Assembly: GCA_947503305.1 (NCBI GenBank)
Contig: CANNDF010000003.1
Coordinates: forward strand, 372,001-436,000
DNA: 64,000 bases
Source: an uncultured Dokdonia sp.
Lineage (GTDB): Bacteria; Bacteroidota; Bacteroidia; Flavobacteriales; Flavobacteriaceae
Reading direction: 5' to 3'
Part shown: positions 181-62,996 of the stretch, piece after piece
Layout of the letters: every line of letters begins with the position of its first letter
How positions within the stretch are numbered: position 1 is the stretch's first letter
Program-made: the position numbers and the translations under genes
The notes under the pieces: generated by a model
What the model was told of the DNA's origin: nothing
Databases searched by the model: none
Seen by the model: the letters and a program-made list of their open reading frames with translations, nothing else

Positions 181-1000
181 CATCTTTAATCTCCTTTTCT
201 AGCTGTTTTACTAATGTCAACTTTCTTTTATTCCGTATGATTTGATCAATGGTTGGCCTTACATATTCTAGAGGTGCCGTTTCATTTCGCGAAAGCGTAG
301 CCTTGACAGCGATCAAATATAATCCTAATGAATCTCGTAGTTGTAAAAAATTGGTTTTTTTTAACAATTTATCGGCATTTGAGGCATTAATTGGGTTAAT
401 CCCTGCTTGAACTACACTTCTCTTGACCCATATTGAATCATTCAAAAAATAATTTTTAAACTGTAATCGTATGGAGTCTAATTGTACTCTATCTTCTGGT
501 TGAAAGTCAATAAAAAGTTTTTGCAACTCTTTACTGTCCTTAAAATCTGGTCCTACTTGGATATATCGCAATTGGATAAGCTCTTCGTTAAGCTTAAAAT
601 TATGCTTATTTGCTTCATAAAATTGCTTTGCTTCTTGATCTGATACTGTACTATCCAATCGTTGATTAATCAACCTGTCTTTATATAGTTTTGTGTATAA
701 ATCACTTCGGTAATCTTGAACTAATTTCTCAAATTTATTTTGCTCTTCTTCTGACAAATTCAAAAGTGCTCCATCTAGTAATAGCTGATTTGTTGCCCAA
801 TCATTAATATAGTCTGTAATTATTGTTGCACTATCCAAAAGAAATTCTTTTTCTTTTAAAACTTTTTCTACATCTTTTTTGTACAGAACTTTTTTATTTA
901 CTCTAGCTACCACTTCTTCTGGTGCAGAGTTATCAAAATAACCGCAGGACCCAAGAAGAAGACATATTAAACTTAATATAACACCTTTGAGTAAACTCAT
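143..1000 (-). CDS. Parvulin-like lipoprotein without a clear catalytic domain
   Basis: The 285-residue product starts with a lipoprotein signal (LGSC, Cys19), so it should be anchored in the outer or inner membrane facing the periplasm. Directly after it comes ARVNKKVLYKKDVEKVL, which resembles the opening 'A-x-V-N-x-x-x-(I/L)' helix of SurA/PpiC proteins. The rest is helical and charged, and I see no parvulin core such as the HI(L/M) and GGDLG motifs found in its upstream neighbour. It probably acts as a chaperone-like partner without isomerase activity. Its ATG overlaps the stop of the upstream gene by 4 bp (997-1000), and its own end overlaps the surA-like gene, so the three are one operon. 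Confidence 0.7.
   Translation of the reverse strand: MSLLKGVILSLICLLLGSCGYFDNSAPEEVVARVNKKVLYKKDVEKVLKEKEFLLDSATIITDYINDWATNQLLLDGALLNLSEEEQNKFEKLVQDYRSDLYTKLYKDRLINQRLDSTVSDQEAKQFYEANKHNFKLNEELIQLRYIQVGPDFKDSKELQKLFIDFQPEDRVQLDSIRLQFKNYFLNDSIWVKRSVVQAGINPINASNADKLLKKTNFLQLRDSLGLYLIAVKATLSRNETAPLEYVRPTIDQIIRNKRKLTLVKQLEKEIKDDAIKNKKFEIYN
283..296. repeat. Window palindrome, degenerate copy (2 mismatches)
   Basis: CATTTCGCGAAAGC, with the left end altered. It lies in the parvulin-like lipoprotein gene and is read LSRN. Confidence 0.55.
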
Positions 1001-2952
1001 TCTCCCACTTCTTTAATTAAGGTTTTAAGAACTTTTTCATCTACTGTTATCTTAGATGAAATCTTAAGCTCTTCTAACCAATCTTGTTCAATTTCTTTTT
1101 GAAAATCATTGATCACTGTCCCTTTTATTTCGTCTAAAGTTCTTAATCTTGATGGTAGTATTTTTATAACGTTATATAATACATATTCATTGTCATTTTT
1201 ATAAATATCACTTAACCCTAGGGTTGGGGTGTATTCCTTTACAATGTAGTTTGTATCTGCTTTTGTTATTTCCTTATTACTAAAGAGCGCATTTACTTCC
1301 TGATCTTTATTTATGATCCCTTCTATACTTTCAATATCTACTCCTTTTCTTAATAGTTTTTTGATTTTAGTGAGTGTAGACTTCTTACTTCCAGTAATAA
1401 TCGTTACTTCCAACTGTTCTGGCTTTCTATATGTCTCTATGTGATCTTGGTAGTATTTTTGAAGTCGTATAGTGTCATTTTTTGCTATTCCCCAAACTTT
1501 AGACTCTAATAAATCAAAAAGTAGTAATCCTTCTTTATATTCTCGTAAGACTGCTTTAAATTCTGGATTATGTTCTTCTAAGTGGTTTTCATGATAACGT
1601 CTAATCGTACGACTAGTCCATGCATTTAAAGCTTGCTCAACAAAGTTTTTTTTAGAAGAATACGATTGCCTTTGTAAAGTATTTGTTATGTATTTACCAA
1701 AGTCTATATATCGTAAAACTGTATCATTTAATGTAAATACAACCTTATCTGCATCTTTAGTTGAGTCACCATATCTCCAGCCTTTTTTAGCGTCATTATC
1801 TGGTAATAATTGGACAAAATGTGGTACAACTTCTATAGCATCTTTTATCCCGTAATAAGAACGTAATTTTGTGATGAGAGTATCTGATATAATTTTAGAG
1901 CGTTCATCTCTTTTTAATTTTGCCTCGATAGCATCGCGTTCTTGTTCATAACTTTTTACAGGAAATTTTTCTATTAGCTTAGCGATATGCCATCCAAATT
2001 TAGTCTTGAAAGGTTCCGTGTAATCTCCAATATTTTGTAACAGAAATACTTTCTCTTCAAATATTGGACTACTTAATTGACCTGATTCAAAACGTCCTAA
2101 GACTCCTCCTTTTACAGATGATCTTTTATCATCACTATGTATTTTGGCAAGGTTTTCAAAGTCTCCTCCATTTTCTATTAGTGTATAAATATCTTGTATT
2201 CTCTTTTCTGGATCTAATGTTGAGTCTTTTTGCTTTAAGGAAATCATAATATGTGCTACTTCAATAGCACCCTGATATTCTCGTTTTGCAGTAGTTTGTA
2301 CAATATGATACCCAAATTGGGTTCTAAAGGGTAAAGAGACTTCTCCTGTATCTATAGAAAAAGCAGCTGTCTCAAATGGATACACCATTTTAAAAGCTTT
2401 AAACCATCCTAAATCCCCACCATTTTTCTGAGCAGATGGATCATCACTATATCTTTTTGCAACGGTTTTAAAATCCTCTCCTTTTACAATTAAATCTCGA
2501 GCTTGTAATATTTTTGAATACGCTTTTAATGTATCTTCTGGAGTTGCCTCTGCCCCTATTCTTACTAATATGTGTCTTGCGTTTACCTCTGTGACTGTGC
2601 GATCATATGCTTCTTTTATAAGAGACTCTGTTACTTCTACATCTGTCAGATAGTTTTTAACCAGTTGTTTTCTATAGCCTTTTAACTCTCTTATATACGT
2701 AGGTTTTTTGTGTAGACCTTGTTTATAAGCTTCTTGTACTTTTAATTTATACTCTTTAAAAAGTTCTAAATACTGCCTAGGATCTTTTTGAGTATCATCT
2801 TTTACGAGACTTATATTTTTTTGATATACAGATTTAAATTCTTCTACAGTAATCGCCTCATCGTTAATATATAAAAGGACGGTTTCATCGCTCTGAGAAA
2901 AACATAAAAAGGAGGTAGTTAGAAAAAAAAGTGTGCAAAAATACTTTAACAT
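997..2952 (-). CDS. Periplasmic peptidyl-prolyl isomerase with two parvulin domains
   Basis: This is a secreted PpiC/SurA-type folding factor of about 651 residues. The open frame extends to 3003, but the ATG at 2952 is chosen because it opens directly into a normal signal peptide (MLKYFCTLFFL...FSQ) and sits just after a promoter-like element. Two parvulin cores are visible. The first is near residues 122-222, with ARHILVRIG and GGDLGWF. The second is near 229-330, with VAHIMISLK and GGVLGRF. The C-terminal half is a helical region without a recognised fold. It is the first gene of the three-gene folding-factor operon. It probably helps outer-membrane proteins mature in the periplasm; the substrates are not known. 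Confidence 0.88.
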   Translation of the reverse strand: MLKYFCTLFFLTTSFLCFSQSDETVLLYINDEAITVEEFKSVYQKNISLVKDDTQKDPRQYLELFKEYKLKVQEAYKQGLHKKPTYIRELKGYRKQLVKNYLTDVEVTESLIKEAYDRTVTEVNARHILVRIGAEATPEDTLKAYSKILQARDLIVKGEDFKTVAKRYSDDPSAQKNGGDLGWFKAFKMVYPFETAAFSIDTGEVSLPFRTQFGYHIVQTTAKREYQGAIEVAHIMISLKQKDSTLDPEKRIQDIYTLIENGGDFENLAKIHSDDKRSSVKGGVLGRFESGQLSSPIFEEKVFLLQNIGDYTEPFKTKFGWHIAKLIEKFPVKSYEQERDAIEAKLKRDERSKIISDTLITKLRSYYGIKDAIEVVPHFVQLLPDNDAKKGWRYGDSTKDADKVVFTLNDTVLRYIDFGKYITNTLQRQSYSSKKNFVEQALNAWTSRTIRRYHENHLEEHNPEFKAVLREYKEGLLLFDLLESKVWGIAKNDTIRLQKYYQDHIETYRKPEQLEVTIITGSKKSTLTKIKKLLRKGVDIESIEGIINKDQEVNALFSNKEITKADTNYIVKEYTPTLGLSDIYKNDNEYVLYNVIKILPSRLRTLDEIKGTVINDFQKEIEQDWLEELKISSKITVDEKVLKTLIKEVGE

Positions 2953-9039: not shown

Positions 9040-9990
9040 TTACAACTCATAAGTAGCACCTTGCTCAGCAAAGTGATATCCTTGTTCTTCTAAGAGTAAT
9101 CGTTGAGGGTTATCTCTTTCTAATGCTACATTAGAGTGATTAAAATGTATAAATATAATTTTTGATTTTGTAGTAAAATCTGTTTCTTCAAAAAGAGCTA
9201 CTGTTTCTTCAATAAATGGATGAGGAACTTCATTCATAGGTCTTGAAATTTCACCATCAGAGAAAAAAGTAGCATCCAAAAATGCATAGTCTACACGCCT
9301 TACTTCTTCTACAATAGACTGCTCCCATTTAGACCATTTATCAATATCAGGAATGAATAAAGCGGTTTTATTGGGCCCTTCAATACGATATCCAACAGTT
9401 TCAGAAAATTCATCTCTATGTGGTACTAGGAATGGTGTGATTTTTAGCTTTCGCGAAAGCGTAATACTACGATCAGCAACTATCTTCTGTATTGTTATAT
9501 TGTTAAGGTCAATCAACTGATTCCAAGGACCATTACTTTCTAAAAAATCTTGCATCAATGGCATCGTAAATACAGGAATATTCTTTGCTCCCATAGCTTC
9601 TCTGCCAAAATGCATTAAACCTGTATAATGACCTATATGTGCATGCGTAAGAAAAACACCATCTATAATCGTTTTATTTTCAACATCTTTTCCCAAAAGA
9701 TATAATTGCTCCGGCATATCAGGAGTCGCCTCAAAAAGGTATTTATGATTATTTTCTTTATCTATAAGACCTAGACTAACTACTAACTCTTTAGAGTTTG
9801 CTCCTGTACTGATTGCCTCAAACTCATGCGTATTATTAATATGTGGATATCCACCATCTTGAGCGATTCCCAATACTTTAATGTAATATGGAGAAGTAAC
9901 TAACGTAGTTTGTTTGTTATCTACATTCTTTGTTTTTGAACAAGCGCAAAACAAAATTAAGCTAAACACTATACAATGTCTTAAATTCAT
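9040..9990 (-). CDS. PqqB-like metallo-beta-lactamase-fold lipoprotein
   Basis: The 316-residue product has a short N-terminal signal with a Cys at position 17 (LFCACS), so it is probably a lipoprotein outside the cytoplasm. The mature part opens with LGIAQDGGYPH, a phrase shared with PqqB and its relatives. The metal-binding stretch is THAHIGHYTG (His116, His118, His121), where the usual Asp of HxHxDH is Gly. Later LDATFFSDGE and FIHFNHSN complete an MBL-like core. No other pqq genes are nearby, so PQQ synthesis is unlikely; a general hydrolase is more plausible. One copy of the window's palindrome (9447) lies inside the gene and encodes LSRK. It is divergent from the DUF4197 gene. Confidence 0.75.
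   Translation of the reverse strand: MNLRHCIVFSLILFCACSKTKNVDNKQTTLVTSPYYIKVLGIAQDGGYPHINNTHEFEAISTGANSKELVVSLGLIDKENNHKYLFEATPDMPEQLYLLGKDVENKTIIDGVFLTHAHIGHYTGLMHFGREAMGAKNIPVFTMPLMQDFLESNGPWNQLIDLNNITIQKIVADRSITLSRKLKITPFLVPHRDEFSETVGYRIEGPNKTALFIPDIDKWSKWEQSIVEEVRRVDYAFLDATFFSDGEISRPMNEVPHPFIEETVALFEETDFTTKSKIIFIHFNHSNVALERDNPQRLLLEEQGYHFAEQGATYEL
9447..9460. repeat. Window palindrome GCTTTCGCGAAAGC
   Basis: Perfect copy in the PqqB-like gene, read LSRK. Confidence 0.9.
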
Positions 9991-14990: not shown

Positions 14991-15476
14991 ATGATTAAAA
15001 AAGTAGGATTTGGAGGAGGTTGCCATTGGTGCACAGAAGCTGTTTTCCAAACTATAAAAGGTGTTACTCGCGTAGAGCAAGGATATATTGCTTATATAGA
15101 TGAGTATATTGATTTTTCAGAAGGCGTCATCGTTCATTTTGACACATCAAAAGTATCTTTAGAACAACTTATCCAAATTCATATAAACACACATCAATCT
15201 ACAAGTAATCATAGTTTTAGAAGTAAATATCGATCTGCTATGTATTGGTTTGAAAAAGAGCAGAAATACGCTTTCGCGAAAGCAATACAAACCCTACAAT
15301 CCCATTTTGAAAATCCTATAATTACAAAAGCACTACCCTTTGGAGCATTTAAAGCTAGCCGAGAATCCATACAGGACTATTTTAAAAAAAATCCAGATGC
15401 CCCTTTTTGTACACGGTATATTAATCCTAAGTTAGAAAAACTACAAAAAGAATATACAGATTGGGTTAAGGAGTAA
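14991..15476 (+). CDS. msrA: Peptide-methionine (S)-S-oxide reductase
   Basis: MsrA repairs oxidised methionine. The active-site motif appears as GGGCHWCTEAVF with the catalytic Cys11 (the family form is GCFWCxE), followed by GVTRVEQGY and the HINTHQSTSN segment. The 161-residue length is typical. The window palindrome at 15270 lies inside and encodes AFAKA in a surface-type helix. The last 11 bp overlap the end of the convergent retropepsin-like gene. Confidence 0.88.
   Translation: MIKKVGFGGGCHWCTEAVFQTIKGVTRVEQGYIAYIDEYIDFSEGVIVHFDTSKVSLEQLIQIHINTHQSTSNHSFRSKYRSAMYWFEKEQKYAFAKAIQTLQSHFENPIITKALPFGAFKASRESIQDYFKKNPDAPFCTRYINPKLEKLQKEYTDWVKE
15270..15283. repeat. Window palindrome GCTTTCGCGAAAGC
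   Basis: Perfect copy in msrA, read AFAKA. Confidence 0.9.
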
Positions 15477-17888: not shown

Positions 17889-17902
17889 GTTTTCGCGAAA
17901 GC
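17889..17902. repeat. Window palindrome, 1 mismatch, intergenic
   Basis: GTTTTCGCGAAAGC between purM and the MACPF gene. Flanks GGTAC and ATACC extend the dyad. Confidence 0.8.
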
Positions 17903-18078: not shown

Positions 18079-21000
18079 TTGAAGACATTAAAGTTTTTAA
18101 GTGTGTTATTATATGCCTATTGTTTTCTCATATCAATAGAAAGTAATGCACAATCATCTGCTAGTAATAACATAGGATTTTCGGATTCTATGTTATCAAA
18201 AAATGATGTCCTAGGGCATGGATTTGACATACGTACCATTGATCCTCTTAATTGGAGTGCTTCATCTATTGGAGAAGTTTTTATAGCACCTAAAATCACA
18301 AGAGATAAAAAAACAATCTCATCTCCAGAAAGCTATCATTTTGTGACAAACACGTATGAGTTTGAAAAAGAAGTATTAAAAAGCGATTCAATAAACAGAC
18401 CATTAAGAGCTACAAATAGTAAAGCATATTTTAAACCATTTGGAGAAACCGCAAACTCAAATGTGCTAATGGTTTATACTCAAAAAAAAGTAATCACCGA
18501 AAGTGCTAAGTTCAACCCTATACAATCTCAGTTGGATATATCACTTATAGAAGATTTTAAACGATTAGGTCGGGATATTACACCTGCAGGATTTATTTCT
18601 CGTCATGGGACACATGTTGCGCAAGAAGTATCTTATGGAGGTCTATTTGTTTTAAGAAACTCTATTTCAAAAAATGACTTTATATATTCTCCATATACAA
18701 AAGACATATTTACAGATAAGCTTAAGGTTGAAATTAAAAATATACAAACAGAAGGTCCTAAAGAAGATCCCTATATACATACAAAAACTGGTGCGTTATA
18801 TACAGTAGGAGGACAAACCGAGTTGCCATGGTTTACACTTTGGGAAAATACAGTAAACACTAATAACCAAATACCCATAGATATAGAACTTACACCTATT
18901 GTAGATGTTTTAAGAGCTTTATCATTACCAGATATAGAAAACAAAATTGAAAAGCTAAATGTACTGGATAGTATTACACAAATAGCTACTCAAAGTGCTC
19001 GTTCGCAAATAAGTTCAGGTACAAAAAGTCATTTTTTTAAGAAATACTCTTTACGATTTAAACAAGAGATAGTCGACATCGTAAAAAAAAGTATGGGACC
19101 TGTAAAAACAAGTAGTAATGATTATACAGGGGATATTTTTTTTGGTGGTTTTTCAAAAGATGAAGCATTATTAAATACCAAACCTCTTATTGAAAGAGGT
19201 GGGTTACGACTGGAAACATTAATTACTGATGAATTAGTACGGTTAGATAAAAATGTAATTGTTACCATTAAACCCGACGATATCGAATATGGGTATATGA
19301 GTGTATGGGATGACACTAAGAAACTTTTTAAAAGTAAGGATCGTAAACGCTTACGAGTTGCTGGGTCTGAAGAAGCAAAAACATATTATAAAGATGCCCT
19401 TCTAAAGAATGTTCAAAAAACAGTCACAATTACTTCTGTAGATGATCATATCTACGAAGTTACCTATACAATGGAATTGGTAAAAGAAACGGACCTTCTT
19501 AAAAACTTAAATACAACCTATAACTATGCCTTAGATAGTGAGCTCGTAGCTGCTGCTGCTACAGGAGATATAGAAAAGCTTACACTACTCTTTGCAAGAA
19601 ACGCAAATACTAGAAATGATGGAGTAATACGATCCATAATAACAAATAAGCAATCGCCTAATGTGCTCAACTTTGTTCTAGATAATGGAATCATCCCAAC
19701 CACAAATGATCTTGACTTAGCCTTTGAGCGCGACTATTTTAATAGGGATTATGCATTGATACTTCTAGAGACAGGTGCAAGACCAAAGAATAATATGATC
19801 TATAAAGCAGTAGCTTATAGAGATGCTCCTACAATCTATGCATTGTTTAGAGAAGGGGCAGAACCTCGAAACAACGATCTTGCTTTTGCCCTTAGAATGA
19901 ACTACTACCCAACGGTTAAAGCCCTTATGGGAGAAGATTACGAATCATTTGAAGCAGGAAAAAATGAACTTTTACTCGCTGCAGAAAATAACGATGCAGA
20001 GCTCGCTCAAAAATTTATTGAATTAGGGGCGACTGCAGATGCCTATATTCTCTCTCAAGCTATATCTCATGATAATGAGACACTAAAAAATGTAATTATT
20101 CCTGTAACCGAAGCTAGTAGTGAATCTTTAAAAGTAGCCGCATCGATAAACGACACAAATCTTTTTAAATATTTTATTGATAAAGATGCAACTCTTGAAG
20201 AAGATACGGTATCAGAAATAACTATAGATAATAATAATACAACAATACTTGATCTTGCCTTAAAAAATGGTGGTAATGCTCAAAAAGCAATTACCTATGC
20301 AATCAAAAAACAAAATAAGCCAGCAATTGTAACTTCATTAAAGAATAAAGCAAATCCGGATGTCGTATTTGATTATGCTGTTAAAAAAAATGACATCACT
20401 CTCTTTGAAGATGCATTGGTAACATATAATGGAGATCCAGAAAAAGCATTACAAACAGCTGTAGAGAAAGATAAATTGGCATTTGCAGAACTTATACTTT
20501 CAAATAAGGATATGAAGGTAAACCCAAATAAAGCTATTGACTTTGCTGTAGAAAATGAAAATTTAACAATGGTGGAGTTATTAGTAAATAATGAAGGAGA
20601 TCCTAATATAGGAATTGAAAGAGCTGTTACAAAAGAGAATATCCCTATAGTACAATACTTAATATCCAAAGGCGCAGAAACCATAGATCCTTCCCTTATT
20701 AAAAGCGCCGTAAAAAATGAAAATCTTGAGTTATCAAAAGTACTCATAGAAGAAGGAGAAGCAAATGCAAATAATGCTATTGTAAGTGCTACAGAAACCG
20801 CAAATGTTGATATTACATCTTATCTACTTGACAAAGGAGCTACAGCAGACCAAGCGCTTAAGAGTGCCATGGAAACAAAAAATGAAGAAATTATTTTAAC
20901 CTTAATGAAAAATCTAGAGGCCCCGCTACATAATAACGCTCTTTCTACTGCTGCCAGAAAAGGAAATAAAAGAGTTATACAGTATTTAATTTCAGAAAAA

Positions 21001-21480
21001 AGCTTTAACCCACAAGAAGGCGTTGCAGATGCTATCCTCTATAAACAAGATGATGTTCTCAGCTATTTACTAAAATCTGGAGCAAAAGCTACACCAAATC
21101 ATATAAAGCAAGCTATTGAGTTTGATAATAGCAAAGGTCTTACACTGCTACTAGAAACAGGAATATCCATAAATACTCCCTTTGAAAATGGCTCTACTGC
21201 ACTTCATTTGGCTGTAGTGCAATCAGATCCAGAAAATCTTGACATACTTAACATACTGCTTTCTCAGAAAGCAATTCAAATAAATATAAAAAATAGCAAA
21301 GGAGAAACCCCATTACATCTAGCATCTAAAAAAGGGGAAGATATACTAACTATTATAAAATTATTAGTAGACAAGGGAGCAGATATTACGGCAAAAAATA
21401 CAAATGATGAAACTCCTATAGATTATTCCTTTGATAAAACCACAAAAAATTACCTCAAAAAAAGGGTGAAATCTCAATAG
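18079..21480 (+). CDS. Secreted MACPF pore-forming protein with a long ankyrin-repeat array
   Basis: This 1133-residue protein starts at a TTG: a stop codon lies 12 bp upstream and no in-frame ATG fits, while the signal peptide (residues 1-24, ending SNAQ) is complete. The N-terminal third has MACPF/CDC hallmarks: LGHGFDI at 45-51, the signature HGTHVAQEVSYGG at 176-188 (family form YGTHY-x6-GG), and later GGQTELPWFTLWENT before a helical PI-containing segment. From about residue 485 to the end there are roughly twenty ankyrin-like repeats. Most are degenerate, but the last ones are canonical (GSTALHLAV, GETPLHLASKKG). There is no T9SS tail or lipobox. MACPF proteins insert into membranes; an antibacterial or anti-eukaryote toxin or a surface adhesin are both possible. 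It converges with the curli operon. Confidence 0.82.
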   Translation: MKTLKFLSVLLYAYCFLISIESNAQSSASNNIGFSDSMLSKNDVLGHGFDIRTIDPLNWSASSIGEVFIAPKITRDKKTISSPESYHFVTNTYEFEKEVLKSDSINRPLRATNSKAYFKPFGETANSNVLMVYTQKKVITESAKFNPIQSQLDISLIEDFKRLGRDITPAGFISRHGTHVAQEVSYGGLFVLRNSISKNDFIYSPYTKDIFTDKLKVEIKNIQTEGPKEDPYIHTKTGALYTVGGQTELPWFTLWENTVNTNNQIPIDIELTPIVDVLRALSLPDIENKIEKLNVLDSITQIATQSARSQISSGTKSHFFKKYSLRFKQEIVDIVKKSMGPVKTSSNDYTGDIFFGGFSKDEALLNTKPLIERGGLRLETLITDELVRLDKNVIVTIKPDDIEYGYMSVWDDTKKLFKSKDRKRLRVAGSEEAKTYYKDALLKNVQKTVTITSVDDHIYEVTYTMELVKETDLLKNLNTTYNYALDSELVAAAATGDIEKLTLLFARNANTRNDGVIRSIITNKQSPNVLNFVLDNGIIPTTNDLDLAFERDYFNRDYALILLETGARPKNNMIYKAVAYRDAPTIYALFREGAEPRNNDLAFALRMNYYPTVKALMGEDYESFEAGKNELLLAAENNDAELAQKFIELGATADAYILSQAISHDNETLKNVIIPVTEASSESLKVAASINDTNLFKYFIDKDATLEEDTVSEITIDNNNTTILDLALKNGGNAQKAITYAIKKQNKPAIVTSLKNKANPDVVFDYAVKKNDITLFEDALVTYNGDPEKALQTAVEKDKLAFAELILSNKDMKVNPNKAIDFAVENENLTMVELLVNNEGDPNIGIERAVTKENIPIVQYLISKGAETIDPSLIKSAVKNENLELSKVLIEEGEANANNAIVSATETANVDITSYLLDKGATADQALKSAMETKNEEIILTLMKNLEAPLHNNALSTAARKGNKRVIQYLISEKSFNPQEGVADAILYKQDDVLSYLLKSGAKATPNHIKQAIEFDNSKGLTLLLETGISINTPFENGSTALHLAVVQSDPENLDILNILLSQKAIQINIKNSKGETPLHLASKKGEDILTIIKLLVDKGADITAKNTNDETPIDYSFDKTTKNYLKKRVKSQ

Positions 21481-21493
21481 TAAATCACAGGTA

Positions 21494-21507
21494 GCTTTCG
21501 CGAAAGC
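21494..21507. repeat. Window palindrome GCTTTCGCGAAAGC, intergenic
   Basis: Perfect copy between the convergent MACPF and curli-locus genes. No T run follows, so it is not a standard terminator. Confidence 0.9.
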
Positions 21508-24472: not shown

Positions 24473-24484
24473 ATAGATAGATTA

Positions 24485-24892: not shown

Positions 24893-24893
24893 A

Positions 24894-25682: not shown

Positions 25683-25695
25683 TTATAGCGTATTA

Positions 25696-26238: not shown

Positions 26239-26275
26239 GATCATTATTATTAGGTTACTCATATCAAACTTGAAA

Positions 26276-26304
26276 AAGGAGGGATTATTTTAAAATCCCT
26301 CCTT
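26276..26304 (-). terminator. Terminator or attenuator between the last curlin gene and csgB
   Basis: AAGGAGGGATT (26276-26286) pairs with AATCCCTCCTT (26294-26304), an 11-bp stem with a 7-base loop. Read on the minus strand it is followed by TTTTT. It lies after the curlin gene that ends at 26375 and about 40 bp before the csgB start, so read-through would set the ratio of curlin to export machinery. Confidence 0.75.
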
Positions 26305-26374
26305 ATAAAACTATTTATAGCTTAATACTTTATGGTCTAAAAGTACTAAATTTATAATTAATGTAACTTATATT

Positions 26375-28301: not shown

Positions 28302-28315
28302 GCTTTCGCGAAAGC
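28302..28315. repeat. Window palindrome GCTTTCGCGAAAGC, intergenic
   Basis: Perfect copy between the second and third curlin genes; it is not part of the elements shared by the three curlin promoters. Confidence 0.9.
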
Positions 28316-28416: not shown

Positions 28417-28433
28417 TATGATTTTTATATATC

Positions 28434-35859: not shown

Positions 35860-35873
35860 GCTTTCGCGAAAGC
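35860..35873. repeat. Window palindrome GCTTTCGCGAAAGC, intergenic
   Basis: Perfect copy between the convergent GSII and antiporter genes, after the GSII terminator. Confidence 0.9.
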
Positions 35874-41076: not shown

Positions 41077-42906
41077 ATGCAGTATTTAAAAAATATAGGT
41101 GTTCTCTTGATTGTTTTATTCGCTTTCGCGAAAGCTTATACTCAAGAACAAAAAAGAAAAGAGATAGACATCACATCTGATGTATCAAGAATAGACGAAG
41201 AAAAGTATCCAGGAGCTTTTATCATGAATAAAGCAACCAATCAAGTCTATATCATACATGAGGGAGTTGAAATGTGGTGTGATTTAGCTTTTCACTATAA
41301 AGACGAAAATTTTGTTAGAGCGCTAGGCAATGTAAAAATCAAACAAGGAGATTCAGTCTCTATGAGAAGCCGCTATGCAGAATACAATGGAAATACTAAA
41401 TTTGCATATGCTAGAGGCAATGTCTGGCTAAAAAAAGATACAACTACGGTTACCACAGACACGATGTATTTTGATCGTATCAAACAACAAGCATACTACA
41501 GAAGTGGTGGTATAGTAACCTCTCCCAATAGTGAGATAACCAGCAGAATAGGTCGTTATTATCTCGAAGACGATAAAATTTCTTTTATAAATAAAGTAGT
41601 TGTTACAAATCCAGAGTATGTAATCAATAGTGAGCAATTAGATTTTTATAGTGAAACAGAACATGCTTATCTATATGGCCCAACAACAATTACAAGTGAT
41701 TCCTCAAAAGTCTATTGTGAACGTGGCTTTTATGACACAAAAAATGACAATGGATATTTTGTGAAAAAATCACGTATAGATTATGATAATCGACAAGTCT
41801 ATGGAGATAGTCTTTACTTCGATAGAGTAACAAATTTTGCAAGTGCAACTAATAATATTAAAGTCTTAGATACACTTAACAATAGTCTTATAAAAGGCCA
41901 TTATGCAGAAGTTTATAGAGAAAAAGATTCAGTTTTTATCACAAAAAGAGCTGTGGCAATTACAGTAGAAGAACAAGACTCAGTCTATGTTCATGGAGAT
42001 CGACTTATTGTCACTGGGAAACCTGAGAATCGTATCGTAAGAGGGTATTATAACGTACGTTTATTTAAAAGTGATTTAAGTGGTAAATGTGATTCCATAC
42101 ATATTAATCAAAAAACAGGACTCACTCAAATGATACGAAAACCCATCTTATGGAGTGATCAAAGTCAAATCACTGGAGATAGTATTCACCTTATTAACAA
42201 TACTAAAACAGAAAAACTAGACTCCCTAAAAGTATTTAATAATGCATTTATAGCACAAAGAGATACCATATCTGGGTACAATCAAGTACGAGGGCAAAAG
42301 TTATATGGATTTTTTAATGAAGATAATGAACTTCATAAGGTCGATATTATAAATAATGCTGAGAGTATTGTATATATGAGAGAGGAAACTGGTAAACTTC
42401 AAGGCATAGACAAAAGTAAGTCTGCATCCATCACCATATTATTTGTTGATAAAGCCATTGATGAAATAACAAAATATAAAGACCCCGGAGGAAATGTATG
42501 GCCAGAATCGCAGTTTATTCAACAGCAACAAACCTTCGACACCTTTAACTGGAGAGGAGATGAACAACTACTAAGTAAAGAAGATATTTTTAAAGGGGAA
42601 GCTCCCTTTGAGATGACAAAAATTAAAGGGATACCATTACCCAATATAGATACCGATTTCTTTGACAGCCCGCCAGACGGAGAAATTCCTACCATACCAA
42701 AAGCATCAGATCTGACTCCGGAAGAGTTATTAAATAGAAAAGATGATGCACCTAAAATAGGAAACAAAGAAGAATCAAAAAACAAAGCTTCTCAAGATGA
42801 CTTGCAATCTGTAATTGATAAAAATAAAACAGAAGCTCAAAAAAAAGAGTATCAAAAAAAATACGGTAAAGGAAGTGATACTACCAAAAAGAAAGATGAT
42901 GGTTAA
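41077..42906 (+). CDS. OstA/LptA-like protein
   Basis: The 609-residue protein has a signal peptide and many OstA-like beta repeats, such as DSVSMRSRYAEYNGNTKFAYARGNVWLKK cut into units ending YxxGNV, and later DSKVYCERGFYDTKNDNGYF. The family transports or scaffolds lipopolysaccharide across the periplasm; Bacteroidota versions are large and less well studied. The ATG at 41077 is chosen over a TTG at 41068. The signal peptide contains the window palindrome (41122-41135), read as AFAKA just before the cleavage region. The C terminus is a Lys/Asp-rich tail. It is followed after 12 bp by the aminotransferase gene. Confidence 0.82.
   Translation: MQYLKNIGVLLIVLFAFAKAYTQEQKRKEIDITSDVSRIDEEKYPGAFIMNKATNQVYIIHEGVEMWCDLAFHYKDENFVRALGNVKIKQGDSVSMRSRYAEYNGNTKFAYARGNVWLKKDTTTVTTDTMYFDRIKQQAYYRSGGIVTSPNSEITSRIGRYYLEDDKISFINKVVVTNPEYVINSEQLDFYSETEHAYLYGPTTITSDSSKVYCERGFYDTKNDNGYFVKKSRIDYDNRQVYGDSLYFDRVTNFASATNNIKVLDTLNNSLIKGHYAEVYREKDSVFITKRAVAITVEEQDSVYVHGDRLIVTGKPENRIVRGYYNVRLFKSDLSGKCDSIHINQKTGLTQMIRKPILWSDQSQITGDSIHLINNTKTEKLDSLKVFNNAFIAQRDTISGYNQVRGQKLYGFFNEDNELHKVDIINNAESIVYMREETGKLQGIDKSKSASITILFVDKAIDEITKYKDPGGNVWPESQFIQQQQTFDTFNWRGDEQLLSKEDIFKGEAPFEMTKIKGIPLPNIDTDFFDSPPDGEIPTIPKASDLTPEELLNRKDDAPKIGNKEESKNKASQDDLQSVIDKNKTEAQKKEYQKKYGKGSDTTKKKDDG
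41122..41135. repeat. Window palindrome GCTTTCGCGAAAGC
   Basis: Perfect copy in the signal peptide of the OstA-like protein, read AFAKA. Confidence 0.9.
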
Positions 42907-46540: not shown

Positions 46541-48952
46541 CTATTCCTGATATATAATCTTTTCAAAGCATCCTATAGGTGAGCCATCTGGAATCTTTGG
46601 AGAGGGCAATACTTTAAAGTTTTCTGGTTTAGCAAATGCATTATTTATAATATCAATCATATATTGAGCATTTGGACCTGTATTTTTAGAAAGCTTAGAT
46701 TTTATTTTCTTGAGTTGTGCTTTCGCGAAAGCAGACGTCTGAGGAATTGCATTTTTATGCAATGCTAGATTAATCAAATGTTTAATTACATTATAGTTAA
46801 TAGTTTGTTGTACCTCGCTATTGTACGCATTTTTACTATTTGAATATAACGTTTTATCAACAAGTTCCTGTAAAACTTCTTCAAGACCAAGTTGTTTAGT
46901 ATCTAAGGATTTTTGTTGTATCAATCTATTAGCGCGAGCTGGGTGTAACAGAAGACCTAAAGTCATATCGCTAGCTGTAGATGCGACTCCTAAAGCATCA
47001 AAAGCGACATCCATTTTACTTTTAAAACTCTCTCTAGATCTCCAGTAACCATGTGCTCTTGGAGGGAATAAGGCAAGTTTATCTTCTGGAATAGCCAGTA
47101 CTTTTGCATTAAGAGTTTCTAATACAGCAGATAGTGCTTTACGCTGTTCGTCAGCATCCAGTACCTTAACAATTTTAAGATGTTGATCTCCTTTAACCGC
47201 ATAATTATAATCTATTCCTGCTATCATTTTGACCGTCGCTTCTGTTTGATAACGATGGTAAAAATATAAGGGGACAAAAACATCTTCCAAAACTGAGTAA
47301 GGTTCATTAGTACGAATATTATCCTCAGAAAAATTACGAATGGCTTGCTCACGGAGCGCTAGTAAGTTTTTTAATTCATCTGTGGCATTTGTACCGTTGT
47401 CCCAAAGGTGTGCTTTATAATGTGCTCCTCCTCGAGGTCGGGCATCACTATCTGTAATATATCGTAATCCCTTTTTTTCTGAAGTCTCTAGGATATTATT
47501 TAAATAATCCTTCTCATTAACCCCATCAGGTACAATCCCATAACTATAGGCAACAGTAACTTTATCCCATTCTCCTATTCCCGTAGCATAGGCATTAGAA
47601 AAATCTACATTTTTGCCTTTTAAAATAAGTGTAGGATGAGGGTAATCCATAACACTCGCCCGTCCATTAGGGCTAGCCGCAAAGTTATGTGCAAACCCAA
47701 TAGTATGGCCTACTTCATGAGCACTTAGTTGTCGTATACGAGCCAAAGCCATTTCCAACATTGGGGTATAATTATCATCACTATCTGCAAATGGTTTGTT
47801 CATTAGTGCTTGAGCGATCAAGAAGTCTTGCCTGATTCGCAAACTGCCTAGGCTTACATGTCCTTTAATAATCTCTCCTGTACGAGGATCAGTTACGCTA
47901 GCTCCATAACTCCAACCACGTGTACTACGATGTACCCACTGGATAACATTATATCGTACATCCATAGGGTCTGCATCTTCAGGAAGCATTTTTACTTGAA
48001 AAGCATCTTTAAAACCTATAGCCTCATAGGCTTGATTCCACCACCTCGCACCATCTAAAAGTGCTGAGCGTACGGGTTCTGGTGTCCCGGGGTCTAAATA
48101 ATAAACAATAGGTTCTACCGCTTCACTTACGGTTGCATTAGGGTTCTTTTTCTCTAATCGATGTCTATTAGCATAACGCTTGCGTATAGGTTCTTGAACT
48201 GGGGTAGCATAATCTAAAAAAGTCGTAGAAATGTTTCCTGCTCTAGGGTCAAATTCTCTAGGAGTATACGCATCATCAGGGAGCTTTACAAATGAATAAT
48301 GCTGGATTACTGTTAATGCCTTACTATCTGGAGCAACTGTCCTAATATTAGCTCCAGTAGCTTGACCTTTGTAGGTAAGTAGCGACTCAAACTCTGTATT
48401 ATCAGGAAAACTCTTGGTTCGTTCCATAGCCAATGCACTTCGACTATGATCAATCTTGTAAGTCCCTTCTTTTTTACTTTTTAAACGACTGGCAACACCA
48501 TGAGTATCCTCCATCAAAAAAGGAGTGATATCTATTACATATGTATCCCCTTTGGTCTCTTTTATTGGAAAACCAAAAAGAACCGACTTTGCAAAAGCTT
48601 CTTCAATAGATCTACGTTCTAATTTATTTTTGGTATTGGCTCTATAATTTTGATTAGGCTGAACAAGTAATAATTTATTACCTGCTTTTTGGAACTTTAC
48701 AATAGCGGTCCCTCCTAACTGTCCTCGGTCAATACCTATATCATTAGATCCAAGTCCTGTACGTAATGAATGTACATATAAAAACGCTTGATCTACTTGA
48801 TCTACTTCTAGATATAGTTTGTCTTCATTTTCATTGTAATGGATTTTAAAAAAACCTTCCTGTGTTTGAAGATCTGACTTTGAAGCCAGAAATTGTGCAT
48901 TCCCTATTCCACTAAAAAACAGTACGACTAGTACAAATATTATATCTCTCAT
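46541..48952 (-). CDS. Secreted metzincin-type zinc metalloprotease (DUF5117/DUF4953 type)
   Basis: The 803-residue protein has a signal peptide (ending IGNAQ). The zinc site is HEVGHTIGFAH (His412, Glu413, His416, His422), the extended metzincin motif, with a Met-turn at SVMDYPHP shortly after. The N-terminal region (LASKSDLQTQEGFFKIHYNE ...) and C-terminal region match the DUF5118/DUF5117 and DUF4953 arrangement of Bacteroidota proteases. The target is not known. The window palindrome at 46719 encodes AFAKA in the C-terminal region. Confidence 0.85.
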   Translation of the reverse strand: MRDIIFVLVVLFFSGIGNAQFLASKSDLQTQEGFFKIHYNENEDKLYLEVDQVDQAFLYVHSLRTGLGSNDIGIDRGQLGGTAIVKFQKAGNKLLLVQPNQNYRANTKNKLERRSIEEAFAKSVLFGFPIKETKGDTYVIDITPFLMEDTHGVASRLKSKKEGTYKIDHSRSALAMERTKSFPDNTEFESLLTYKGQATGANIRTVAPDSKALTVIQHYSFVKLPDDAYTPREFDPRAGNISTTFLDYATPVQEPIRKRYANRHRLEKKNPNATVSEAVEPIVYYLDPGTPEPVRSALLDGARWWNQAYEAIGFKDAFQVKMLPEDADPMDVRYNVIQWVHRSTRGWSYGASVTDPRTGEIIKGHVSLGSLRIRQDFLIAQALMNKPFADSDDNYTPMLEMALARIRQLSAHEVGHTIGFAHNFAASPNGRASVMDYPHPTLILKGKNVDFSNAYATGIGEWDKVTVAYSYGIVPDGVNEKDYLNNILETSEKKGLRYITDSDARPRGGAHYKAHLWDNGTNATDELKNLLALREQAIRNFSEDNIRTNEPYSVLEDVFVPLYFYHRYQTEATVKMIAGIDYNYAVKGDQHLKIVKVLDADEQRKALSAVLETLNAKVLAIPEDKLALFPPRAHGYWRSRESFKSKMDVAFDALGVASTASDMTLGLLLHPARANRLIQQKSLDTKQLGLEEVLQELVDKTLYSNSKNAYNSEVQQTINYNVIKHLINLALHKNAIPQTSAFAKAQLKKIKSKLSKNTGPNAQYMIDIINNAFAKPENFKVLPSPKIPDGSPIGCFEKIIYQE
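46719..46732. repeat. Window palindrome GCTTTCGCGAAAGC
   Basis: Perfect copy in the C-terminal part of the metzincin gene, read AFAKA. Confidence 0.9.
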
Positions 48953-48991: not shown

Positions 48992-49005
48992 GCTTTCGCA
49001 AAAGC
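48992..49005. repeat. Window palindrome, 1 mismatch, intergenic
   Basis: GCTTTCGCAAAAGC with symmetric TAT and ATA flanks, between the metzincin and propeller-lipoprotein genes. Confidence 0.8.
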
Positions 49006-52062: not shown

Positions 52063-52076
52063 GCTTTCGCGAAAGC
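52063..52076. repeat. Window palindrome GCTTTCGCGAAAGC, intergenic
   Basis: Perfect copy in the 44-bp gap between the HAD and ArsC-like genes. Confidence 0.9.
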
Positions 52077-56642: not shown

Positions 56643-58337
56643 GTGAAAAAAATAAAAAAAATACCTGCTCTAGTCATTGCAATCTTAGGATTGATCCTAG
56701 TAAACTATCTTGGTACTTTAGTACATAAAAGATATGATCTTACACAAGACAAACGCTATACACTAAGTGAACCAGCAAAAGCAGTCATTGATCAAATTAA
56801 AAGTCCAATGATCATAGATGTGTTTTTGGATGGAGAATTTCCAGCTGAGTTTAGAAAATTACAAAACGAGACACGTTATTTACTAGAAGAGATTACAAAT
56901 TATAATAGTAATGTATCTTTCGTTTTCTCAAACCCCATAGAAGAAGGTGCAGATGCCAGTGTAGTAGCTCAACAATTTGCAGATTTTGGGATGACCCCGC
57001 TCCCCCTTCAAGTAAAACGTAATGGAGCAGCATCTACACAAACACTATTCCCCTGGGCTACTGCAAACCATAACGGAAAAGCGGTCCCTATATCGCTTAT
57101 TAAAAATGTTGCCGGAGCATCTCCGGAACAATTTGTATATGCCTCTACTCAAAACCTGGAATACACCTTTATCGATGGGTTTAATCGATTACTGAATGCA
57201 AAAACAAAACGAATTGCTGTATTAAAAGATAATGGAGAACTCCCGGATGCTCGTATTGCAGATATGTTTAGAAAATTAGGTGAGACCTATAGTATTGCTC
57301 CTTTCCCTATGGATGCTGTGACCTCTGAACCTGAAAAAGCGCTACAAGCTTTACAAAATACATTTAACCTTATTGTCATAGCCAAACCTACAAAAGCCTT
57401 TACAGACGCACAAAAATATGTATTGGATCAATACACTATGAATGGAGGCAATTCCTTATGGCTCATAGATGCCGTAGCAATGGAAAATGATAGTCTTCGC
57501 AATGATACCGGTAAAGCTCTAGCTTTTCCTAGAGATCTCAATTTAAACGATTTTTTCTTTAAATATGGCGCGCGTATCAACCCCGTATTGATTAAAGACT
57601 TATATTCTGCACCTTTAAGTTTGGCAACAGGAGATGGCAGTAGCTCACAATACACAGAATTACCTTGGTTTTATCAACCTAGCGTGCCTTCTTTTAATAC
57701 ACACCCTATTAACACCAATATAGAACGGCCAGTAAAATTTACATATGCAAATCAAATTGAGCTTCTTAATAATACGCCATCAATAACCAAGACAGTTTTA
57801 CTAGCGTCAAGCCCCTTAACTCGAATAGAAGGCACGCCAAAAGAAATTTCTTTAGATCAAGTGTCTATAGAACCAAAACAAGAAGATTATCAAGATGGGA
57901 GTCAACCCATGGCAGTACTACTGGAAGGCACTTTTGAATCTGCTTTTAAAAACAGAATACAACCCGTAAAATTAGAAAAAGTACGCTTTCGCGAAAGCGG
58001 AAAAGCCCCCTCTAAAATGGTAATCATAGCCGATGGTGACCTTATTGCAAATGATGTAGATCCACAAGGAAACGCTTTAGAATTAGGATTTGATTACTTT
58101 ACTAGAAATCAATACGGAAATAAAGAGTTTCTTCTTAATACTGTTAATTACCTCCTTGATGATAATGGGCTTATTAACATACGTAGTAAAGAGATTGCCC
58201 TGCCTTTTTTAAATACACCTCAAGTAGCAAAAAGTCTTAATAAGTGGCAAGCCTTAACTGTCGGGCTTCCTTTGGTGTTTCTATCGATTTTTGGAATCCT
58301 GTTTTACATACTTCGCAAACGTAAATACACACGATAG
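56643..58337 (+). CDS. gldG: Gliding motility ABC transporter substrate-binding component GldG
   Basis: The 564-residue protein starts at a GTG. An N-terminal membrane helix (ALVIAILGLILVNYLGTLV) precedes a large extracytoplasmic domain with the family phrase RYDLTQDKRYTLSEPAK. A C-terminal helix (LPLVFLSIFGILFYIL) follows. It pairs with GldF in the gliding transporter. A palindrome copy at 57985 is read RFRES, the third of the three possible frames. Confidence 0.93.
   Translation: MKKIKKIPALVIAILGLILVNYLGTLVHKRYDLTQDKRYTLSEPAKAVIDQIKSPMIIDVFLDGEFPAEFRKLQNETRYLLEEITNYNSNVSFVFSNPIEEGADASVVAQQFADFGMTPLPLQVKRNGAASTQTLFPWATANHNGKAVPISLIKNVAGASPEQFVYASTQNLEYTFIDGFNRLLNAKTKRIAVLKDNGELPDARIADMFRKLGETYSIAPFPMDAVTSEPEKALQALQNTFNLIVIAKPTKAFTDAQKYVLDQYTMNGGNSLWLIDAVAMENDSLRNDTGKALAFPRDLNLNDFFFKYGARINPVLIKDLYSAPLSLATGDGSSSQYTELPWFYQPSVPSFNTHPINTNIERPVKFTYANQIELLNNTPSITKTVLLASSPLTRIEGTPKEISLDQVSIEPKQEDYQDGSQPMAVLLEGTFESAFKNRIQPVKLEKVRFRESGKAPSKMVIIADGDLIANDVDPQGNALELGFDYFTRNQYGNKEFLLNTVNYLLDDNGLINIRSKEIALPFLNTPQVAKSLNKWQALTVGLPLVFLSIFGILFYILRKRKYTR
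57985..57998. repeat. Window palindrome GCTTTCGCGAAAGC
   Basis: Perfect copy in gldG, read RFRES. Confidence 0.9.
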
Positions 58338-61098: not shown

Positions 61099-62196
61099 AT
61101 GCCAATTAGAGCCCTTATTCTATGTTGTGTCTATTTATTCACATGGCATATATACACGCAAGAAACTGAACAAAAGCCTTTTGATGTCGAGTTTAATTAC
61201 TTTTACGGCAATATAGCAGAGCATAGCAAAGATATCGCGCATCTTATCACAGGACACCCTACAGGGTTTATAGCAAGTTATAATAGAAAGACATACGGCT
61301 TTAATGAATGGGAACGACGTTACAATTATCCTGACTGGGGATTTTCTTTCATTTATCAAGATTTAAAAAATGAATTTTTAGGAGATAATTATGGTCTATA
61401 CGGACATTATAATTTCTATTTTTTAAAACGCAAAGCATTCTTCAGAGTAGGACAAGGAATAGCTTATGCAACAAATCCATTTGACATTAATACAAATAAA
61501 AAGAACAATGCCTATGGATCCCATTTATTAAGCACCACTTTTATAATGCTTAATTACAAACAAAAACTTTTTAAAGACATTTCCATACAAGCAGGATTGA
61601 GTATTATACACTACTCAAATGGAAACGTAAGAGCTCCAAACTCTAGTACCAACACAATTGCAGGTAATATAGGGCTGGTCTACAAGCCTAAAAATCAAGA
61701 AATTCCTGATTTTATCCCCAATGTAAAATCTAAGTATTCAGAACCCATTACTTTTAACTTTGTACTAAGAGGAGGTATCAATGAAAGTGATCGTTTAGGC
61801 CTCGGAAGACATCAGTTTATAATAGGGTCTGCTTTTGTAGACAAACGCATCTCTCACAAAAGCACGTTACAGTTAGGAGTTGATGTTTTCTTTTCTAGGT
61901 TTTTAAGAGATCAAATTCGTTTTGAAGCAGTAGCATTTCCTCAATTTGGCACACAAGGGGATGAAGATTGGCGACGAGTAGGTATATTTGCTGGTCATGA
62001 ACTTCGTTTTGGACGTATAGCATTAGTAAGTCAATTTGGCTATTATGTATACTACCCTTATGATTTTGAAGGCCGTTTTTACATAAGAGCCGGGCTTAAA
62101 CGGTACTTTGGAAAACATTTTTTTGGAGCCGTTACTGTAAAGGCACATGGAGCAAAAGCTGAAGCTGTAGAATTTGGAATAGGATATCGATTATGA
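61099..62196 (+). CDS. PagL-like lipid A 3-O-deacylase / acyloxyacyl hydrolase family protein
   Basis: The protein of about 365 residues has a signal peptide (ending IYTQ) and a beta-barrel-like pattern. IIHYSNGNVRAPNSSTN carries the PagL-type H-x-S-N catalytic motif. PagL removes an acyl chain from lipid A in the outer membrane; here the protein is longer than PagL (about 170 residues), with extra strands. The ATG at 61099 is preferred to a GTG at 61093. The last bases overlap the next gene by 4 bp, so the two are coupled. Lipid A editing is inferred. Confidence 0.8.
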   Translation: MPIRALILCCVYLFTWHIYTQETEQKPFDVEFNYFYGNIAEHSKDIAHLITGHPTGFIASYNRKTYGFNEWERRYNYPDWGFSFIYQDLKNEFLGDNYGLYGHYNFYFLKRKAFFRVGQGIAYATNPFDINTNKKNNAYGSHLLSTTFIMLNYKQKLFKDISIQAGLSIIHYSNGNVRAPNSSTNTIAGNIGLVYKPKNQEIPDFIPNVKSKYSEPITFNFVLRGGINESDRLGLGRHQFIIGSAFVDKRISHKSTLQLGVDVFFSRFLRDQIRFEAVAFPQFGTQGDEDWRRVGIFAGHELRFGRIALVSQFGYYVYYPYDFEGRFYIRAGLKRYFGKHFFGAVTVKAHGAKAEAVEFGIGYRL

Positions 62197-62996
62197 AGTA
62201 TAATTTGACATATATATTAAAAACGATACTATTGCTTTCGCGAAAGCATACATTACACCTATTAATTGCAAGTACCATTATATATAGTTGCGATTCCGAA
62301 AGCGCAACAGATTGCCTTCAAACAGACGGAGATCCAATCACACGTAGTATAGAACTCCCCTTCTTTGATAAAGTGCGAACGGAAAATGATATGCGCTTAG
62401 AAATTACACAAGGTGAGCAACAGCAGATTATAATTGAAACTAGAGAAAACCTTTGGAATGACTTAGTCTTCAAAGTTGAAAATGAGACGTTTGTTATGCA
62501 AAATAAAAACGAATGCAATATTTTCAGAGGTTTTGGGCAGACATTAGTTAGAATTACTGTACCTAATCTGACTTTTATAAAGAATAGTGCAACTTTTGAG
62601 ATACGGAGTAATGGCACCCTTAACTTTCCAGAGGTTCTTCTAGAGAGTATTACTACACTAGGCTTAGAAAGTATTAATAAAACAGGAGATTTCTTTTTAG
62701 ATCTTAATACTGAGCAATTAAATGTTGTCGCCAATGGAATGAGTGATTTTCATATTACTGGCACAGCACAGCTATGTCAAATTCGATTTTCAGATGAATT
62801 TCCAAAATTCTATGGAGAAAATCTTATTGCCCAAGAAGTAGTTGTAAATCATACAGGAGCTGCTCCTATGATCGTAAATCCACAAGAGAGTATTACAGGG
62901 ACTATAAGAGGCACAGGGGATGTTATTTCTAGAAACATGCCACCCATAATAGATGTAGAAGAACTTTTTTCTGGAAGACTTATTTTTGAGGATTAA
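62193..62996 (+). CDS. GIN-domain (DUF2807) lipoprotein
   Basis: The 267-residue protein has a lipobox IYSC with Cys33. The leader is unusually long, and its start is the ATG overlapping the previous stop. The mature part has repeated beta units of the GIN/DUF2807 type (RLEITQGEQQQIIIETREN, RITVPNLTFIKNSAT, LNVVANGMSDFHITGTAQ). The domain forms a beta-helix, and its function is unknown. The palindrome at 62234 encodes residues 14-18 of the leader (LSRK), dividing it into two hydrophobic stretches. It is cotranscribed with the PagL-like gene. Confidence 0.85.
   Translation: MKYNLTYILKTILLLSRKHTLHLLIASTIIYSCDSESATDCLQTDGDPITRSIELPFFDKVRTENDMRLEITQGEQQQIIIETRENLWNDLVFKVENETFVMQNKNECNIFRGFGQTLVRITVPNLTFIKNSATFEIRSNGTLNFPEVLLESITTLGLESINKTGDFFLDLNTEQLNVVANGMSDFHITGTAQLCQIRFSDEFPKFYGENLIAQEVVVNHTGAAPMIVNPQESITGTIRGTGDVISRNMPPIIDVEELFSGRLIFED
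62234..62247. repeat. Window palindrome GCTTTCGCGAAAGC
   Basis: Perfect copy in the leader of the GIN-domain lipoprotein, read LSRK. Confidence 0.9.

Follow-up and report, generated by a model that had tools for sequence, protein, structure and literature searches.

Across the 64-kb window, the whole stretch of Dokdonia DNA analysed here, we found ten exact copies of GCTTTCGCGAAAGC, a perfect 14-bp palindrome, together with two copies carrying one mismatch (starting at 17889 and 48992) and one carrying two (at 283). Inside genes, the exact sites encode LSRK in a beta-lactamase-superfamily ORF (site 9447..9460; ORF 9040-9990, minus strand) and in the ORF at 62193-62996 on the plus strand (site 62234..62247), AFAKA in an MsrA-type ORF (site 15270..15283; ORF 14991-15476, plus strand) and in the signal-peptide part of an OstA/LptA-like ORF (site 41122..41135; ORF 41077-42906, plus strand), SAFAKA in a met-zincin-domain ORF (site 46719..46732; ORF 46541-48952, minus strand) and RFRES in an ORF with an ABC_transp_aux domain (site 57985..57998; ORF 56643-58337, plus strand); the degenerate copy with two mismatches (283..296) lies inside the ORF at 143-1000 on the minus strand. 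The corresponding part of the OstA/LptA-like ORF also carries an exact site in G015, G011, G014, G006, G008, G009, G002, G003 and G016. The intergenic exact sites lie between convergent ORFs (21494..21507, 14 bp past the stop of the ORF at 18190-21480 on the plus strand, and 35860..35873, with a counterpart within about 11 bp of the same place in G011 and G014) or codirectional ones (28302..28315 and 52063..52076). Both one-mismatch sites are intergenic, 17889..17902 with divergent ORFs on either side and 48992..49005 at a position where the aligned sequence of G011 has an exact site.

An earlier note on this DNA had counted ten perfect copies and three with one or two mismatches, and had put the expectation far below one copy per 64 kb. 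Both statements are borne out, with 13 copies at up to two mismatches compared with 0.13 expected (100 dinucleotide shuffles, largest 1), and the runner-up 14-bp palindrome of the window occurs once. The recurrence is neither close to expectation genome-wide nor confined to the window, the two outcomes that the note had named as speaking against it: the own 4.26 Mb genome holds 570 copies and none of the reversed-letter control, an excess of the kind expected of a HIP1-type palindrome, and 369-905 copies are found in each of the Dokdonia congeners (17/17 genomes sampled). Beyond the genus, assigned as Dokdonia with a PurA tree, two other genera in a sample of 237 from Flavobacteriaceae are rich in the site, the reversed-letter control reaching 1 in a few of the other genomes surveyed, and three 21-kb loci of the related genus Leeuwenhoekiella contain no exact copy. 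Among 80 named purA loci, the Dokdonia locus alone carries this palindrome at least twice; as for recurrent palindromes of their own in other genera, an AT-rich 12-mer occurs twice in each of two loci, a recurrence that we take to be chance. No description of the palindrome was found among the titles and abstracts listed, including for Dokdonia, Flavobacteria and Bacteroidetes, in a literature search that lay mostly outside subscription journals.

The sites are strictly preserved in place between species while their flanks diverge. Among aligned pairs with a flank identity of 0.50-0.75, 65 of 67 intergenic ones have an exact core, as do 0.77 (n=22) and 0.69 (n=144) of coding ones, compared with at most 0.5% for control 14-mers; these pairs share ancestry and are not independent, their queries were chosen as exact sites, and an exact core can seed its own alignment. 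As expected, the contrast shrinks at higher flank identity (intergenic pairs at 0.85-0.95: 0.96 for the core and 0.28 for the control). The many copies, and the in-frame AFAKA that the site encodes in many proteins, would suit a mobile or insertional repeat such as a REP/RAYT or other palindromic insertion element. Yet 24 of 44 aligned pairs with a site-less partner allele are gapless; in the remaining 20 a gap falls at most 20 bp from the core, and such a gap does not on its own amount to an insertion (15 of 21 sequences served as queries, and these pairs too are related by descent rather than independent). In SpoT the alleles at the site are graded. That many site-less alleles are gapless substitutions argues against an insertion element. 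In a comparison of 25 genomes, 9 site-rich and 16 site-poor, the Y1 (RAYT-type) transposase is missing in 5 of the 9 rich ones; we therefore reject RAYT as a partner and regard a mobile repeat as highly improbable.

The full site spans about 50 bp and consists of the core, TTAC arms and C-poor, G/T-rich flanks that end at a sharp edge near -18. Over 392 sites from four genome samples, C fills position -1 in 0.76 and T in 0.16, and T is found in 0.72 at -3 and in 0.62 at -4; the extension TAYGCTTTCGCGAAAGCRTA given in the earlier note is thus broadly right, though less so at -2, where A reaches only 0.49. The flanks are depleted in A and C and enriched in G and T: C stands at 0.05-0.07 in the own genome, G006 and g11 and at 0.16 in G230 (background 0.15-0.23), and the keto (G/T) fraction is 0.62-0.69 compared with 0.49-0.54 in the background. 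This G/T-rich flank, on the 5′ side of each strand, is phased in threes, with a z of 5.1 for T in 80 strict intergenic sites and 4.4 in 234 coding sites. By genome, the T phase reaches z 4.9 in G006 and 4.8 in g11; the own genome shows it weakly (z 2.2, not above the largest distant-control z of 2.4), and in G230 it lacks significance (z 1.0). In permutations, the flank period has p values of 0.005-0.05.

Relative to gene sense the flank signal is equal on both sides, and it is present in strict intergenic sites as well, which indicates a DNA signal rather than an RNA signal. Covariation between the flanks of the two half-sites is weak (z 3.1 at -1, 2.3 at -4, -2.0 at -6, others within 1.5), and on these grounds we reject a hairpin or RNA reading. 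The earlier note had likewise held that the site is not a terminator, a view supported by the T-rich 5′ side of each strand (A-rich 3′), which is the reverse of a terminator, and by the occurrence of sites in genes and in all intergenic classes; the T run 3′ of the stem that marks an intrinsic terminator is lacking. The flank composition might also be a second, separate signal, a mutational trace left beside a palindrome-binding protein, for instance by deamination of an exposed 5′ strand. Changes of A to G and of C to T both yield keto bases, in line with flanks depleted in A and C and richer in G and T, but the triplet phase and the sharp edge resemble contacts and not damage, and we consider such a trace quite unlikely.

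In the tracts examined, sites follow one another at a quasi-regular interval of 4-5 kb. Counting exact and one-mismatch sites, the gap CV is 0.50, 0.36, 0.54 and 0.45 in four tracts, compared with 0.93-0.99 for random placement (p <=0.0004), and the four tracts together contain one gap below 1 kb where about 31 are expected. Along the closed genome G006, 40 stretches hold 1-8 sites per 20 kb (dispersion 0.47) with no trend by eye, ori and ter being placed by GC skew alone. Sites show an intergenic excess (27/63, 78/190 and 42/82, with approximate coding and intergenic labels because ORFs were called mechanically) and no consistent promoter preference.

This distribution would suit a chromosome-organising site, at which a dimeric nucleoid protein on each copy bridges or anchors loops of about 4-5 kb, and the perfect dyad of the core, the weakly covarying and hence largely independent half-sites and the inconsistent promoter preference are in keeping with it, as is the even spacing without visible trend in G006. 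Against it, strand-asymmetric, G/T-rich, triplet-phased flanks would be unexpected for a bending or bridging protein, and a stretch of about 63 kb without an exact copy is tolerated, with one one-mismatch copy inside. Noc/NBS and parS sites are palindromes of 14-16 bp with TTTC..GAAA arms, and the site resembles them in length and in having such arms. Unlike them, it occurs in hundreds of copies, has another centre spacing and shows no visible chromosomal bias in G006, where placement near ori or absence from ter, as for Noc, was not seen by eye. ParB_N is matched in 25/25 genomes and exactly once in each of the 9 rich ones, so that site carriers, unlike Noc/ParB systems, have no second ParB-family protein; a Noc/ParB paralog is absent in 9/9 rich genomes and is rejected as the reader. 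The presence of ParB_N in rich and poor genomes alike indirectly supports the earlier statement that the site is not parS, and no parS consensus lies within one mismatch in the stretches of the own genome, G006, g11 and G230, the origin probably being outside them. The organising reading, listed in the earlier note as one of several unranked options, survives as one of two leading readings, and we hold it to be possible though rather doubtful.

Exact copies far outnumber near-copies, with 395 exact and 65 one-mismatch sites in the genome samples. A DNA uptake signal of natural transformation, spread by biased uptake like USS/DUS, could explain the genus-wide abundance and the intergenic excess; ComEC is found in 25/25 genomes, and uptake sequences, too, have been claimed to be evenly spaced (by Karlin et al., according to PMC1939737, the author of which, in the part available, finds the spacing less even). 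The USS/DUS of Pasteurellaceae and Neisseriaceae share with the site hundreds of copies and a flank preference beyond the core, but according to the available part of PMC7811141 their flanks are AT-rich and USS lie about 1 kb apart, compared with 4-5 kb for the Dokdonia site. Unlike them, the Dokdonia site is a perfect palindrome with few near-matches, whereas one uptake sequence has 438 exact and 947 one-mismatch copies (86 expected by chance; PMC1939737, in part), a comparison that is indicative only, as short motifs gain more chance near-matches than a 14-mer. It is also carried on phage contigs, with 2-7 copies in at least 11 viral records (32 counted among the matches listed), some of which are apparently near-copies by site positions (G816/G833; G813/G836), so that these counts are not independent. 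ComEC fails to separate rich from poor genomes, and the type IV pilus ATPase (T2SSE) exceeds the cut-off in 2/9 rich and 3/16 poor genomes; 7/9 rich genomes thus differ from USS/DUS carriers, and the type IV pilus is rejected as the reader. The uptake signal raised earlier is therefore not supported as one read by a type IV pilus, and we find an uptake signal unlikely.

Among one-mismatch copies the outer G and C are most frequently altered (36/62), as is reported for the ends of HIP1 in the available part of PMC4390886. HIP1 of cyanobacteria (GCGATCGC) is, like the site, a GC-rich palindrome iterated hundreds of times and restricted to a lineage, and a HIP1-type element would be kept by DNA methylation and repair. 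HIP1 has 8 bp, whereas the 14-bp core and about 50-bp selected footprint here, with G/T-rich, triplet-phased flanks, are far longer than a methylase site. Unlike HIP1, the site has no obligate C5 methylase: a match is missing in 4/9 rich genomes (G004, G006, G281 and G230), in a test that covered C5 types alone among DNA methylases. We therefore reject the C5 methylase as a partner; the HIP1-like methylation suggested earlier is not supported in its C5 form, and a HIP1-type element appears very unlikely.

Collectively, we are highly confident that selection acts on the site as DNA and that a dedicated symmetric protein or complex recognises it inside the cell, one copy per several kb being enough, so that a second nearby copy is not kept. 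The copies probably mark where a candidate protein grips the chromosome. No tested candidate family separates the 9 rich from the 16 poor genomes, and the reader protein was not found among them; as the samples cover part of each genome, a shared gene is likely to have been missed. Proteins sampled across the rich lineages gave one unusually similar outlier (97.4%, L354 and L303 over 342 aa), taken to be a conserved housekeeping protein.

On the best reading, the site would serve chromosome maintenance inside the cell, perhaps as a recombination station. The known Chi sequences are short, polar and non-palindromic. The Dokdonia site, dispersed like Chi at one per about 4-5 kb, is instead long and without orientation, its core being a perfect palindrome. 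Chi has 1008 exact copies in the 4.64 Mb of E. coli (PMC1939737, in part). AddB, which would be expected to read a Chi-type signal, gives no sign of tracking the sites, a point that weighs somewhat against a recombination station: it is present in 25/25 genomes, rich and poor alike, with no signal of co-inheritance with the site (identity to the own AddB 37-39% in g11, 46% in G230 and 39-46% in the 16 site-poor genomes). The weak triplet phase in the own genome and its lack of significance in G230 count against it as well. We nevertheless advance, tentatively, a recombination or repair station, which would do the work of Chi in palindromic form. The palindrome would be its stop or recognition signal, able to work from either side because it is palindromic. 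On each strand, a filament-forming recombinase of the RecA kind may use the 15-nt tract 5′ of the core, G/T-rich and triplet-phased, as its landing pad. Such recombinases read DNA in threes. The link between G/T-rich triplets and RecA is in part inferred; a literature search on RecA and GT-rich DNA returned nothing relevant. Even spacing fits a dsDNA-binding organiser equally well. With considerable reserve, we suggest that the site represents a novel type of chromosomal address: a palindromic station for recombination or organisation, about 50 bp long, whose symmetric core would fix the place and whose triplet-phased G/T arms, one on each strand, would nucleate a recombinase-type filament. 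Such addresses, on a likewise doubtful joint proposal, would stand one per several kb on the replicons of the cell, be read by a protein yet to be described, and have been gained more than once or repeatedly lost in Flavobacteriaceae.

The signature of about 50 bp is absent from one-copy viral records and present in multi-copy phages and transferred islands. At a detection limit of about 17 nt, named plasmids gave no match, and among named phages a 17-nt match turned up in two mycobacterial prophages, taken as chance. The signature marks DNA from these lineages, pointing out phages and transferred metal-efflux islands. A genome-wide signal whose spacing itself is so even has few known counterparts. 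The signal is long, exact and easily seen, and it occurs in marine bacteria with closed genomes; with no exact copies in the sampled Leeuwenhoekiella, comparison or a pulldown should lead to its reader. If the site is an organiser, it would offer an evenly spaced loop anchor open to direct testing; should it be a recombination station, it would form a palindromic counterpart of Chi and, to our knowledge, the first such signal in Bacteroidota.

We found that the 14-bp palindromic core GCTTTCGCGAAAGC occurs in the window in 10 exact copies, two with one mismatch and one with two, against 0.13 expected, and our recount thus agrees with the ten exact and three near copies of an earlier note; no other 14-bp palindrome in the window occurs more than once. 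The note had also proposed counts in the whole genome and in relatives, and these bear out the repetition: the 14-mer is found 570 times in the window's own genome (4,264,867 bases, 57 contigs), where the reversed control is absent, and the 17 other sampled Dokdonia genomes all hold between 369 and 905. The genus is called Dokdonia because the window falls, together with a named uncultured Dokdonia assembly, in a 17-row clade (support 98) of the PurA tree. The window also contains, at 21538-31932, a cluster that looks curli-like by eye, with a CsgG-like protein and three similar consecutive paralogs of 505-506 aa.

A family-level draw of 397 genomes, including the own one, gave 80 with one copy or more. 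Six, from three genera, are rich: two Dokdonia (570, 857), three of genus g11 (578, 664, 609) and one of genus g210 (G230, 408), the remaining 74 having 1-19 copies each. A draw of 395 genomes from the phylum gave matches in 22, with the own genome as the sole rich one and at most six copies in the rest; reversed-letter controls in both draws gave 0, or 1 in a few genomes. On the PurA tree, G230 clusters with Dokdonia and Leeuwenhoekiella (support 94) and g11 is placed elsewhere, and the rich label requires three changes, two of them forced by starred branches. An exact copy is missing from the three Leeuwenhoekiella loci, which contain a single near match. This placement and these loci suggest that the site-rich state was gained multiple times or lost repeatedly, a single gene being weak evidence on the exact history.

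The core is framed by arms, TTAC on its 5′ side and GTAA on its 3′ side, and by outer flanks that extend, 5′ of the core on each strand, to position -18. In 62 one-mismatch copies, the change hits the outer G or C in 36, the sixth base in 14, the fifth in 10, and either the centre or the pair of T's that follow GC in 2. Flank C drops from 0.15-0.17 to 0.05-0.07 in the own genome, the closed genome G006 and g11; in G230 the drop is from 0.23 to 0.16. Keto bases (G/T) rise to 0.62-0.69. T peaks at -4, -7, -10 and -13, a period of three with z of 5.1 at 80 strict intergenic and 4.4 at 234 coding sites (computed without -4 and -5; distant control positions reach z 2.4). Taken one sample at a time, the phase is clear in G006 (z 4.9) and g11 (z 4.8) but not in the own genome (z 2.2) or G230 (z 1.0). 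The flank signal is identical up- and downstream relative to gene sense.

Predicted ORFs cover 0.89-0.92 of the sequence; 27/63, 78/190, 42/82 and 8/60 sites in the four samples lie outside them, and no consistent preference for one class of intergenic region was found; genic sites most frequently use the AFAK frame (67/112 in G006). The coefficient of variation of the gaps in four tracts was 0.50 (60 sites), 0.36 (12), 0.54 (45) and 0.45 (49) against 0.93-0.99 for random placement, and one gap below 1 kb was observed against about 31 expected, in a test that counts one-mismatch sites and ends the own tract on contig C1 at 326 kb, leaving out an island. Under-dispersion of the counts per 20 kb is significant in G006 (p = 0.002) and in g11 (p = 0.004) but not in G230 (p = 0.15) or the own genome (p = 0.28), and no trend in density is visible along the G006 chromosome. 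The island (C1:326186-389711, about 63 kb) has no exact site and one one-mismatch copy, and is probably recently acquired DNA, since by eye it carries tyrosine recombinases, a DNA methylase and RHS-like genes. A further gap of 76 kb lies at 748-824 kb of C1.

Alignment of the purA neighbourhood (20 genomes and the window) gave 170 site-site pairs, 24 gapless substitutions and 20 pairs with gaps at most 20 bp away. SpoT shows a graded allele series, and in G010 the OstA-like signal peptide, aligned at the protein level, is unchanged in length but has other letters in place of AFAKA. At flank identities of 50-75%, the core is still exact in 65/67 intergenic pairs and in 0.69-0.77 of 166 coding pairs, compared with at most 0.5% for control 14-mers. 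Judging from these alignments, the simplest reading is that sites would arise by point mutation and then be held.

Copies in other genera are frequently clustered. In 17 stretches picked from such genomes (L031-L047; sources include G141, G118, G254, G127, G376, G029 and G386), with 40 sites having space for flanks, many stretches are mutually homologous across Flavobacteriaceae genera. Two of them, L034 and L036, were read in detail: Pfam identified two of the four proteins tested there as P-type ATPases, one as an outer-membrane efflux protein and one as a multicopper oxidase, the neighbouring genes have an RND-type metal efflux look by eye, and the sites often encode in-frame AFAKA. Because the palindrome is present on these cross-genus islands, in some with copies a conserved 933 bp apart, they can be traced to site-rich donors. 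Of 32 viral records searched, 11 have 2-7 copies, 19 have one, and the two Nonlabens phages have none. The densest complete-looking record has 7 in 37 kb and the sparsest multi-copy record 3 in 38 kb, a density similar to or lower than that of the hosts. The phage contigs behind L172, L185, L203, L213, L225 and L176 hold 2-7 sites each; several look Mu-like by eye, and some sites sit at matching positions across contigs. The flank signature is present in multi-copy records (20 sites; keto 0.65, C 0.10, T at -3 0.72) and islands (0.68, 0.09, 0.74) and absent from the 19 sites of one-copy records (0.50, 0.29, 0.18), so flanks separate true sites from chance copies.

Of the known kinds HIP1 (PMC4390886), USS/DUS (PMC7811141, PMC1939737), Chi, Noc/parS and REP/RAYT, all of them checked against one or more of their defining features, none gives a complete fit. 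Our four samples contain 395 exact and 65 one-mismatch copies, a sharper ratio than those given in PMC1939737 for an uptake sequence (438 exact, 947 one-mismatch, 86 of the latter expected by chance), E. coli Chi (1008, 8855, 3579) and a cyanobacterial palindrome (5648, 1830, 160), although the greater length of the motif here qualifies the comparison.

We tentatively read the site as a recombination station, in which the palindrome would be a two-way stop signal and a RecA-type filament would start beside it, on the three-phased G/T-rich tract that lies 5′ of it on each strand. RecA works in triplets and prefers G/T, and this reading was chosen because the strand-asymmetric triplet tract matches what such a filament would call for; among the papers listed by a literature search on this link, none was relevant. 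It is weakened by the fact that AddB, which would be expected to read a Chi-like signal, does not follow the distribution of the sites, and a site of a loop-anchoring organiser is a rival that we consider a little more doubtful still. Separately, the own AddB (L066:17525-20000) shares only 47-53% identity with its counterparts in five other Dokdonia genomes, not much above the 39-46% shared with site-poor genera, in contrast to 91-92% for PurA of the same Dokdonia genomes. Taken together, a DNA-level, symmetric and sequence-exact signal, present once per several kb in host and phage DNA, fits a chromosome-maintenance protein better than it fits a regulator, a terminator, a mobile element or a by-product of methylation.
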